A stretch of DNA of 36,093 bases from Lachnospiraceae bacterium (lineage in GTDB: Bacteria > Bacillota > Clostridia > Lachnospirales > Lachnospiraceae): positions 1 to 36,093 of the forward strand of contig JAEELH010000190.1 of the NCBI GenBank assembly GCA_016288825.1, written 5' to 3'. Made by a program: the position numbers and the translations under genes. The first letter of the stretch is position 1; every line of letters starts with the position of its first letter. Under the pieces are notes generated by a model, which saw only the letters and a list, made by a program, of their open reading frames with translations, did not search any database and had not been told where the DNA came from. This document shows, piece after piece, positions 13,848-29,535 of this stretch.

Positions 13848-14082
13848 TGCTGTGACATTGATAGCTATGAAGCGTGAGGTTGCTGCGAATTGAGATTAAC
13901 CCACTCATACGCAGGTTTTCCGTGGAGCGAATGTCTGAGTCGAGAACAAGACGACAAGTCACTGTACTAAAAGGTCTACTATATTGTAGAAACACCGTGC
14001 GTTTTCATATAGGACACACACGGGAGAGTGTACAGTCACCGCTTGTCGTACTACAAAGTGCGAAAAGGAGGCGACTTTTTTT
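13848..14082 (+). promoter_or_regulatory. structured 5' leader of the S10 operon, candidate autoregulatory RNA
   Basis: ACGACAAG (13951-13958) pairs with CTTGTCGT (14042-14049), and directly inside it ACTGTAC (13961-13967) pairs with GTACAGT (14030-14036). Within the enclosed region TCTAC/GTAGA (13975-13990) forms a small hairpin and CCGTG/CACGG (13995-14023) a second one, giving a multibranch fold. The rpsJ ribosome binding site follows at 14066. Autoregulation of S10 operons by L4 is known in proteobacteria; whether this leader acts similarly is inference. Confidence 0.55.
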
Positions 14083-25910: not shown

Positions 25911-26129
25911 ATGTCAAAGACAGATGTAATTGAAGTAGAGGGTAAGGTTATTGAAAAGCTTCCCAACGCCATGTTTTCTGTTGAGCTTGAAAACGGCCAT
26001 CAGATCCTGGCTCATATAAGTGGTAAGCTTCGTATGAACTATATACGTATCCTTCCCGGCGACAAGGTTACAATTGAGATGTCACCCTATGATCTGTCCA
26101 AGGGCAGGATCATCTGGAGAGATAAGTAA
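25911..26129 (+). CDS. infA: translation initiation factor IF-1
   Basis: The tracked frame begins 11 codons early. The ATG at 25911 has AAAGGAATT before it and yields the standard 72-residue protein starting [20 protein letters not shown]. The OB-fold signature [32 protein letters not shown] is complete. IF-1 binds the 30S A site during initiation. It is the last gene before a terminator hairpin that overlaps the promoter for rpmJ. Confidence 0.98.
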
Positions 26130-26149: not shown

Positions 26150-26178
26150 TTGACAGCAGGAGCGCAAACGCATATAAT
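26150..26178 (+). promoter_or_regulatory. perfect-consensus sigma-A promoter upstream of rpmJ
   Basis: TTGACA (26150-26155), 17-base spacer, TATAAT (26173-26178): an exact match to the consensus. It would start transcripts near 26184-26186 and drive rpmJ-rpsM-rpsK-rpsD-rpoA-rplQ. Its spacer and -10 form the left arm of a terminator hairpin. Confidence 0.88.
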
Positions 26179-26209
26179 ACTATGCGTATGCGCTCTGCTT
26201 TTCTTTTTG
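26156..26209 (+). terminator. intrinsic terminator after infA, overlapping the rpmJ promoter
   Basis: GCAGGAGCGCAAACGCATA (26156-26174) pairs with TATGCGTATGCGCTCTGC (26181-26198) with one bulge and one mismatch, loop of six bases, then TTTTCTTTTT. It should end transcripts coming from infA. RNA begun at the embedded promoter lacks the left arm and would not be terminated. Confidence 0.85.
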
Positions 26210-26271
26210 AGTGCATAAAAAATCGTTTCTAATTGGATCAAGCCAGGGCGAGGAAGGAGGAGAGATTTCTT

Positions 26272-26385
26272 ATGAAAGTCAGATCGTCTGTAAAACCTAT
26301 GTGCGAAAAGTGCAAGGTAATCAAGCGAAAAGGCAGCATACGGATCATTTGTGAGAATCCGAAGCATAAGCAGAGACAGGGATAG
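26272..26385 (+). CDS. rpmJ: 50S ribosomal protein L36
   Basis: This gene is too short for the ORF track. It encodes 37 residues, [20 protein letters not shown] to KHKQRQG, the standard L36. Cys11, Cys14, Cys27 and His32 form the zinc site, so this is the zinc-containing form. AAGGAGGAGA precedes the ATG by about nine bases. It is the first gene after the consensus promoter, with a leader of roughly 87 nt. The 63 bases between it and rpsM hold a ribosome binding site and AT-rich sequence. Confidence 0.97.
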
Positions 26386-26448: not shown

Positions 26449-26820
26449 ATGGCTCGTATTGCAGGTGTAGATTTACCCAGAGAAAAAAGAGTCGAGATCG
26501 GCCTTACATACATCTATGGTATCGGCAGAGTAACTGCCGGCAAGCTTCTTGATATTGCAGGTGTAAGCCCTGATACCAGGGTTAAGGATCTCACTGACGA
26601 AGAGGTAAAGAAGATTTCAGACGCCATCGAGAGCGAGGGCGTTGAGGTAGAGGGTGATCTCCGCAGAGACACCGCACTTAATATCAAGAGACTTCAGGAG
26701 ATCGGATGCTATCGTGGTATCCGTCATCGTAAGGGACTTCCCGTTCGCGGACAGAAGACCAAGACTAACGCACGTACCCGTAAGGGACCCAAGCGTACTG
26801 TTGCTAACAAGAAGAAGTAA
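26449..26820 (+). CDS. rpsM: 30S ribosomal protein S13
   Basis: The 123-residue protein starts [26 protein letters not shown], with a helix-two-turn-helix, and ends in the basic signature [27 protein letters not shown] (quoted in part) plus a Lys-rich tail. S13 sits atop the 30S head, forming bridges to L5 and the 23S rRNA, and contacts P-site tRNA. GAAGGAGAA precedes the ATG. Confidence 0.98.
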
Positions 26821-26846
26821 TCTTACGATAGAGAAAGGATTTTGAT

Positions 26847-27239
26847 ATGGCTAAACAAGTTAAAAAGACAACGAGGAGGCGTGAGAAGAAAAATGTTGAG
26901 CACGGTCAGGCTCACATTCAGGCTTCCTTCAACAATACTATTGTAACTATTACCGATGCTGCAGGTAACGCTCTTTCATGGGCAAGCGCCGGCGGTCTTG
27001 GTTTCCGTGGTTCCAGAAAGTCTACTCCCTACGCTGCACAGGTAGCGTCAGAGACAGCAGCTAAGGCAGCTCTTATTCACGGCCTTAAGACTGTAGATGT
27101 TTTTGTTAAGGGACCCGGCTCAGGTAGAGAGGCTGCTATCCGTGCGCTTGACGCATGTGGTATCAGGGTTCTGTCCATCCGTGACGTAACACCTGTACCT
27201 CACAACGGATGCCGTCCGCCTAAGCGTAGAAGAGTCTGA
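26847..27239 (+). CDS. rpsK: 30S ribosomal protein S11
   Basis: The 130-residue protein shows [45 protein letters not shown] and the C-terminal [19 protein letters not shown], all S11 hallmarks. The protein lies on the 30S platform near the mRNA exit. The asparagine-glycine pair (HNGCRPP), known as an isoaspartate site in E. coli, is conserved. GAAAGGATT precedes the ATG, 26 bases after rpsM. Confidence 0.98.
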
Positions 27240-27260
27240 TCAGGGAAGGAGTAGATAGAA

Positions 27261-27854
27261 ATGGCAGTTAATAGAACACCTATTTTAAAGAGATGCCGCT
27301 CCCTCGGATTGGAGCCCGCATATCTCGGAGTGGACAAAAAGTCCAAGCGTCAGCTGACCCGTTCCAACCGTAAGGTTTCAGAGTACGGTCTTCAGCTTAA
27401 GGAAAAGCAGAAAGCAAAGTTCATCTACGGAGTACTTGAGAAGCCTTTCCGCAATTACTATAAGAAAGCAGACCGCCAGAAGGGTATGACAGGTGAGAAC
27501 CTTATGCGTATCCTTGAGAGCCGTCTTGACAACGTTGTTTTCCGTCTGGGTCTTGCTCGTACACGTCGTGAGTCCCGTCAGGTTGTTGGACATAAGTTCA
27601 TCACTGTTAATGGCAAGGTTGTTAACATTCCTTCATATCAGGTTAAGCCCGGTGATGTTATCGAGCTTCGTGAGAGTGCAAGGAGCATGACACGTTTCAA
27701 GGAGATCATGGATGCCACAGGCGGACGTATCATCCCTGAGTGGCTTGATTATAACGAGGATAAGTTCCAGGGAACAGTTAAGGAGCTTCCTAATCGTAGC
27801 CAGATCGACGTTCCGGTTGACGAGATGCTTATCGTCGAGTTGTATTCTAAATAA
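27261..27854 (+). CDS. rpsD: 30S ribosomal protein S4
   Basis: The 197-residue protein has an N-terminal domain without the CxxC zinc pair (only Cys12 in KRCRSLG), the S4 domain with LESRLDNVVFRLGLARTRRESRQVVGHKFITVNGKVVNIPS (in pieces), and ends ELYSK. It nucleates 30S assembly and influences decoding accuracy with S5. rpsD inside the alpha part between rpsK and rpoA fits clostridia, whereas in Bacillus subtilis it is a separate, self-regulated gene. GGAAGGAGTAG precedes the ATG. A small GTTTCT/AGAAAC hairpin lies in the 61-base gap before rpoA. Confidence 0.98.
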   Translation: MAVNRTPILKRCRSLGLEPAYLGVDKKSKRQLTRSNRKVSEYGLQLKEKQKAKFIYGVLEKPFRNYYKKADRQKGMTGENLMRILESRLDNVVFRLGLARTRRESRQVVGHKFITVNGKVVNIPSYQVKPGDVIELRESARSMTRFKEIMDATGGRIIPEWLDYNEDKFQGTVKELPNRSQIDVPVDEMLIVELYSK

Positions 27855-27915
27855 GAGTTGACGGTTTAGCGTTTCTACATAAGAAACCACCTAATTAAGC
27901 CAGGAGGATAACCGA

Positions 27916-28875
27916 GTGTTTGAATTTGAGAAACCCAATATTGAGATCGCAGAGATTTCCGAGGACAAGAAATACGGTAAGTTCATTGTTGAGCCTCTTG
28001 AGAGAGGTTACGGAATTACCCTTGGTAATTCACTTCGCCGCATTATGCTTTCTTCTCTTCCCGGTTGTGCAGTAAGCCAGGTCAAGATCGACGGCGTACT
28101 TCACGAGTTTTCATCCATTCCGGGAGTTAAGGAGGATGTGACTGAGATCATCATGAACATCAAGGAGCTTGCTCTTCGCAACAACAATTTCTCTGATGAG
28201 GTCAAAAGCGCTTATCTTGAGTTTGAGGGTGAGGGCGAGGTCAAGGCTGCAGATATCCATTTTGACAGCGACATCGAGATCATGAATCCCGATCTTACCA
28301 TAGCCCATCTCAACGGCGGCCCTGACAGCAAGCTTTTCATGGAGCTTACTATCACCAATGGCCGGGGTTATATCAGCTCGGAGCGTAACAAGAATGAGGA
28401 TACTCCTATTGGAGTTATCGCTGTAGATTCCATCTACACACCTATTGAGCGTGTCAACATGAAGGTGGAAAATACCCGTGTAGGTCAGGTTACAGACTAT
28501 GATAAGCTTACACTTGAGGTTTACACCAACGGCACAATAGATCCGGACGAGGCAGTTTCACTTGCTGCCAAGGTTCTGTCCGAGCATCTTAATCTGTTCA
28601 TCAATCTTTCTGATGCAGCAGAGAATATCGAGATCATCCACGAGACCGAGAGCGAGAGTGTTACACAGCTTTCCGACATGCAGATCGAGGATCTGGAGCT
28701 TACAGTTCGTTCATACAACTGTCTCAAGCGTGCAGGTATCGGCACTGTTAAGGAGCTTTGTGACAAGACTCAGGACGAGATGATGAAGGTTCGTAACCTT
28801 GGACGTAAGTCCCTTGACGAGATCCTTCAGAAACTCGATGATATGGGTCTTAGTCTCAGGAGATCAGAAGACTAA
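27916..28875 (+). CDS. rpoA: DNA-directed RNA polymerase subunit alpha
   Basis: The 319-residue protein starts at GTG after AGGAGGATAACC. The N-terminal dimerisation domain includes [28 protein letters not shown], and the C-terminal domain (about 250-319) has the helix-hairpin-helix [21 protein letters not shown] and [11 protein letters not shown] that contact UP elements and activators. The order rpsD-rpoA-rplQ is standard. A 10-bp hairpin lies in the gap before rplQ. Confidence 0.98.
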
Positions 28876-28891
28876 TTTACTTTTAATGGAA

Positions 28892-28927
28892 CCACAGAAA
28901 GGTAAGTCCAAAGAGCGCTTTCTGCGG
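28892..28927 (+). other. hairpin in the rpoA-rplQ spacer
   Basis: CCACAGAAAG (28892-28901) pairs with CTTTCTGCGG (28918-28927), with one wobble, loop of 16 bases. There is no T-run. It lies in a 135-base gap upstream of rplQ and could affect mRNA processing or rplQ translation. Confidence 0.45.
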
Positions 28928-29010
28928 AATCTCCATGATGGAAACAGGAGCTCTGTCCGGTAATTCCGATGTGTTCGGCGGGGTTCACCACCTAAGAGGA
29001 GGATAATAAA

Positions 29011-29535
29011 ATGGCAAAGTATCGTAAGCTTAGCAGAACTTCCGCACAGCGTAAGGCACTTCTGCGCAACCAGGTAACACAGCTTCTTTGGCACGGCAAG
29101 ATCGTAACTACTGAGGCTAAGGCTAAGGAAGTTTCCAAGATCGCTGAGGGTCTTATCGCTCTCGCTATCAAGGAGCGCGACAACTATGATGAGGTTACCG
29201 TTTCTACTAAGGTTCCCCAGAAGGACAAGGACGGCAAGCGTGTTAAGGAAGTTGTTGACGGCAAGAAGGTTACTGTTTTTGACACAGTAGAGAAGACAAT
29301 CAAAAAGGATCAGCCTTCCAGACTTCATGCTCGCAGACAGATGCTCAAGGTTCTTTATGATGTTAAGGAGTCAGGAGACAAGAAGCGTGAGACTAAGAAG
29401 GTAGATCTGGTTGCAAAGCTTTTCGACGAGTACGGTCCCAAGTATGCAGGCAGAGCAGGCGGATACACCCGCATCATCAAGATTGGACAGCGCAAGGGTG
29501 ACGGAGCTCTTGAGGTAGTACTTGAACTCGTATAG
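29011..29535 (+). CDS. rplQ: 50S ribosomal protein L17 with a long internal insertion
   Basis: The ends are typical L17: YRKLSRTSAQRKALLRNQV at the start, RLHARRQMLKVL in the middle and GGYTRIIKIGQRKGDGALEVVLELV at the end. At 174 residues it is about 50 longer than the Bacillus protein. The extra part lies between about residues 56 and 102 and is charged and repetitive in Lys, Asp and Val (KVPQKDKDGKRVKEVVDGKK). L17 is located near the tunnel exit, so the insertion probably projects from the ribosome surface. AGAGGAGGATAAT precedes the ATG. It ends the cluster; no strong terminator is seen in the following 153 bases, only a weak AGAAATC/GGTTTCT stem at 29596-29619. Confidence 0.96.
   Translation: MAKYRKLSRTSAQRKALLRNQVTQLLWHGKIVTTEAKAKEVSKIAEGLIALAIKERDNYDEVTVSTKVPQKDKDGKRVKEVVDGKKVTVFDTVEKTIKKDQPSRLHARRQMLKVLYDVKESGDKKRETKKVDLVAKLFDEYGPKYAGRAGGYTRIIKIGQRKGDGALEVVLELV

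Follow-up and report, generated by a model that had tools for sequence, protein, structure and literature searches.

A predicted intrinsic terminator superimposed on a consensus promoter between infA and rpmJ in Lachnospiraceae

The gap between infA and rpmJ in the Lachnospiraceae DNA analysed here (the window, 36,093 nucleotides) raises the question of how one set of bases could both end the transcripts arriving from upstream and begin those of the next operon. The window, contig C224, belongs to an assembly of 2.6 Mb that is 82% complete, and its genus is represented by 12 other genomes. Among named records, the closest are rumen and gut Lachnospiraceae. An S10-Clostridia ribosomal protein leader (RF03136) lies at 13859-13957, at the start of the S10 cluster that ends with infA.

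Layout of the promoter and the hairpin

The promoter at 26150-26178 matches TTGACA and TATAAT at all 12 positions with a 17-nt spacer. It is the sole site with one mismatch or fewer in the 36-kb window, where chance would give 0.17. The 43 nt from 26156 to 26198 are predicted to fold into a hairpin of -26.3 kcal/mol (z -5.49), and none of 200 shuffled sequences was as stable. This hairpin has 17 pairs, one bulge, one mismatch and a 6-nt loop, and its right arm begins three bases past the -10 (Table 1). A simple terminator scan of the window did not list it. The sequence-only reading had proposed that a terminator and a perfect-consensus promoter are superimposed after infA, and both the sequence and the predicted fold confirm this layout. 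It had also assigned the spacer and the entire -10 to the left arm, which is right for the spacer, whereas of the -10 just the initial TA belongs to the arm.

Table 1. Coordinates of the promoter, the putative terminator and the flanking genes in the window
Feature	Position	Strand	Basis or remark
-35 hexamer TTGACA	26150..26155	+	Nearly every one of the 167 scored gaps has a promoter here
-10 hexamer TATAAT	26173..26178	+	TA within the stem, TAAT within the loop
Putative terminator hairpin, left arm (promoter spacer and first two -10 bases)	26156..26174	+	Fold; compensatory changes in the genus
Putative terminator hairpin, right arm (probable initial transcribed region of the rpmJ operon)	26181..26198	+	Fold
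Putative terminator T-run TTTTCTTTTT	26199..26208	+	Sequence; directly abuts the stem
Possible alternative hairpin of promoter-begun RNA, T-run in its loop	26187..26217	+	Fold of 26184-26300
infA (IF-1), last gene of the upstream S10-spc-adk-infA cluster	25911..26129	+	Pfam eIF-1a, E 1.6e-29
rpmJ (L36), first gene of the downstream operon	26272..26385	+	Pfam Ribosomal_L36, E 3.3e-20
rpsM-rpsK-rpsD-rpoA-rplQ	26449..29535	+	Pfam S13, S11, S4, RpoA domains, L17

We consider it likely that these shared bases serve as an intrinsic terminator for infA-side transcripts and as a sigma-A promoter for the rpmJ-rplQ operon. A polymerase arriving from infA would transcribe the spacer, the -10 and the right arm, and its RNA would fold into the 17-pair hairpin and be released at the T-run. 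Judging from the spacing to the -10, transcription from the promoter is expected to start at about 26184-26186. Such an RNA would begin inside the right arm, and because the hairpin could then not form, it would escape. The net effect would be an insulator of about 60 bp.

Folding of 15 class A sequences (those with the -10 in the hairpin, classed as described below) is consistent with this. RNA from the spacer to the T-run folded at -11 to -26 kcal/mol, whereas RNA begun six bases past the -10, the assumed start, folded at 0 to -2.5 kcal/mol. In these folds the left arm lay wholly upstream of the assumed start and the promoter-begun RNA had no terminator hairpin. The proposal in the sequence-only reading that upstream RNA stops and promoter-begun RNA escapes thus holds in its logic and is supported by the compensatory changes, the recurrence at rpsL and the replacement in the nearest relative described below; the folds are predictions, and the start and the termination are inferred. 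In the window, the promoter-begun RNA may form the hairpin at 26187-26217 instead, and its total fold was no more stable than those of shuffled sequences. It had also been suggested that extrusion of the hairpin in DNA affects promoter opening. The hairpin region folds as single-stranded DNA at -16.4 kcal/mol, but the hexamers of promoters without the repeat are about as good (9.46 vs 9.88 of 12), and the suggestion finds no support here.

The infA-rpmJ gap across the family

The infA-rpmJ gap was extracted from approximately 200 loci, and about 165 Lachnospiraceae gaps were scored or classed. A good sigma-A promoter, usually TTGnnn-17-TGnTATAAT, was present in approximately 164 of 167 scored gaps, and a conserved initial region, e.g. 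CGGACTTTTTTTG, followed about 7 bases past the promoter. Most of the distantly related Clostridia with which the list closes had short gaps and scant room for a promoter, and a break at this point thus looks characteristic of Lachnospiraceae. When a strict hairpin-plus-T-run filter was applied to 164 gaps, 15 fell into class A, 4 into class B (the hairpin contains the -35 and the spacer contains the T-run), 6 had a stand-alone terminator upstream, 2 were unclassed and 137 had none. No gap combined any two of class A, the -35-overlapping class B and a stand-alone terminator. The L128 gap has the hairpin followed by only four T and was therefore left out by the filter. Overall, the superposed terminator was found in approximately 16 of 165 gaps, comprising 9 of the 10 scorable genus relatives and scattered others. 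Conservation in relatives, which had been proposed as a check, is thus nearly universal for the promoter and extends to a subset for the terminator. The class B layout, with the -35 within a terminator hairpin and the T-run within the spacer, was seen in the L014, L037 and L192 gaps and is another form of promoter-terminator compaction.

Pairing between each promoter's own spacer and initial region had a mean of -6.22 kcal/mol, compared with -5.11 kcal/mol for swaps between species (none of 5000 was as low), and the excess persisted when the genus was omitted. The distribution was bimodal: tested against shuffled spacers, approximately 21 of 160 sequences (about 13%) were paired at p<=0.01, whereas all others were at chance. 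When all spacers of the family outside the genus were compared with shuffles, they were not paired overall (Wilcoxon p 0.32), and the claim of superposition is therefore restricted to a subset. The extended -10 TG was present in 136 of 147 gaps without the superposed arm and in 7 of 17 gaps with it (Fisher 1.5e-6, ancestry ignored; shared ancestry influences both the loss of TG and the pair counts reported below). The compensatory evolution, the rpsL recurrence and the swap in the nearest relative support the view that the rpmJ operon has a compact insulator here. Insulation is nonetheless dispensable, since 137 of 164 gaps had no terminator that passed the filter and most of the family carries the promoter with none detected before it.

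The initial motif, (A)CGGACTTTTTTTG, often with GAAAGGAG directly after it (e.g. in the L162, L168, L191 and L208 gaps), is kept even where there is no hairpin and has at most one exact copy per genome. It might act by pairing with the ribosome-binding site or, at the T-run, through UTP-sensitive slippage. Because the T-run belongs to a motif that relatives keep without any left arm, it may have a different role, to which the terminator may be secondary. The motif was also considered as the mark of a regulon and rejected: TATAAT-N7-GGACTTTTTT was present in 9 of 120 genomes, never more than once in any of them, and by coordinates mostly in the infA-rpmJ gap.

Compensatory changes, recurrence and alternative explanations

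When nine class A sequences from the genus are lined up by the -10 alone, with no gaps allowed, they share one hairpin register in which 90.9% of cells pair, compared with 19-52.5% when the register is slid by 1-3 bases. Two-sided changes were found in 6 of 11 pairs (2 of 500 shuffles were as high), and the covariation score was reached by none of 500 shuffles; relatedness inflates this shuffle test, whereas the slid-register control keeps relatedness. Arm sequence therefore differs among genus relatives while pairing is retained. In the cases outside the genus (L072, L128, L141, L196 and L214) the arm sequences are different and so, for the most part, are the registers, a pattern suggestive of multiple origins. 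On a tree of infA, rpmJ and rpsM, class A took 10 changes by parsimony, and well-supported branches among the labelled rows forced at least two class A changes. The tree is poorly resolved, and a number of origins is not claimed.

In the nearest relative (G003, locus L350) the promoter is TTGACA-17-TATAAT with the initial region TATGCGGACGCGTTTTTT, the spacer does not pair and thus supplies no left arm, and a conventional stand-alone terminator of -22.3 kcal/mol lies about 60 bases upstream. This replacement bears on the idea that the hairpin is only a 3' end stabiliser or processing barrier for the upstream RNA and causes little termination. Any stable 3' hairpin is capable of such a role, but a T-run immediately after the stem is the layout of an intrinsic terminator, and it is an ordinary terminator that takes the place of the hairpin in this relative. 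We regard the stabiliser explanation as improbable.

A pattern search in the genus found the same layout before rpsL, in the str operon, in four genomes (G001, G004, G008 and G009), where hairpins of -27 to -31 kcal/mol span the -35 to the T-run. One other genus (G049) also has the superposed form at rpsL. By eye, G006, G011 and G012 have a stand-alone terminator-like hairpin before the rpsL promoter. A different arrangement was seen upstream of rpsL at L361 (contig C142 of G000) and at L358 of the nearest relative, where a hairpin and T-run come right after the -10 (AGTGGGGCGTG...CACGCTCCACTTTTT). The left arm of that hairpin straddles the likely start, which could make it a half-exempted terminator or an attenuator. 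At L349:2090-2145 (contig C22 of G006), a nearly perfect 22-pair hairpin runs from the -35 to a T-run with the -10 inside, between genes of Fur type and CobW type as judged from their translations; here an operator is also possible.

Within the window's own genome, approximately 0.57 Mb of the 2.6-Mb assembly was sampled on both strands. Overlaps of weaker terminators with weaker promoters were at chance level, and a strong promoter with a strong hairpin was observed twice where 0.15 was expected. Since one of these two overlaps (on L288) is better read as operators, we make no claim of enrichment across this genome. That overlap, at L288:5382-5430, consists of a TATAAT flanked by two self-palindromic CTAACAwTGTTAG sites, which give a terminator-like hairpin; it stands before the start of a TetR-like gene, and paired operators are the better reading. 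The same question arises for the inverted repeat before rpmJ, which could be an operator in the DNA, bound by a protein that represses or activates the rpmJ promoter, with an incidental T-run. A palindrome across the -10 is typical of operators, as L288 illustrates in this very genome, but the arms before rpmJ are not self-palindromic and vary freely among relatives while pairing is kept, whereas an operator would keep its sequence. Furthermore, the hairpin runs directly into a T-run in the genus series and in the outside cases. An operator is quite improbable on this evidence.

It was also considered that the pairing is a functionless by-product of drift, in a spacer that faces a conserved initial transcribed region. 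Such an explanation would suit a family in which pairing is at chance in most members and only a minority is paired. However, the bimodal distribution, the two-sided changes in 6 of 11 pairs, the recurrence at rpsL and stems of 10-24 pairs all argue against drift, which we find highly improbable. A leader that acts on the rpmJ operon's own transcript, as an attenuator or as an r-protein leader, is scarcely credible: other genera do carry an S4-Clostridia leader (RF03140) before rpmJ above the cut-off (L207:793-854 and L161:780-835), but here every start that fits the -10 lies downstream of the left arm, which would hence be absent from the RNA of the operon, no Rfam leader reached the cut-off in the window's infA-rpmJ gap, and RF03140 had no match over the cut-off there or in the genus.

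Taken together with the likely reading of a terminator and a promoter on shared bases, the comparative data incline us, if only slightly, towards a broader proposal. Lachnospiraceae may have repeatedly evolved self-exempting insulators at essential ribosomal operons (alpha and str) through complementarity between spacer and initial region, with the extended -10 TG traded for a terminator arm. Such insulators would be a selected and swappable alternative to separate terminators, kept by compensatory evolution between promoter and transcript.

Relation to known systems

The spacer of a promoter is commonly regarded as almost unconstrained. Here it seems to evolve in step with the transcribed region, since a single stretch would carry a stop for upstream RNA and a start for the next operon. 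Such an arrangement would provide a natural blueprint for compact insulation within about 60 bp, and simple terminator scans miss it. It would also give a testable route by which a ribosomal gene cluster is split into separately controlled operons. Scattered overlaps of promoters and terminators are known. A limited search of the open-access literature with exact phrases found no precedent paper for a conserved overlap that evolves by compensatory changes.

The hairpin resembles an intrinsic (Rho-independent) terminator in its G+C-rich stem, the T-run directly after it, its position past the stop codon and the compensatory changes in its stem. It differs in that the stem contains the spacer and part of the -10 of the next operon's promoter. 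Yan et al. 2018 (PMC6131387) described E. coli terminators whose read-through depends on where the RNA starts and, for a handful of them, suggested RNA structure as the reason. The parallel is that the start position would likewise govern read-through here, although in E. coli read-through differs by degree between overlapping transcripts, whereas here a downstream start would remove the whole left arm. The corresponding ribosomal gene cluster of Bacillus subtilis is S10-spc-alpha, and the title of Li et al. (1997) states that two promoters may serve the entire 15-kb cluster; compared with that account, the cluster here is broken between infA and rpmJ by a promoter and a putative terminator. 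Finally, ordinary insulation by a terminator followed by a promoter, as used by the nearest relative at this same locus, would reach the same outcome, but it does so with two separate elements instead of shared bases.
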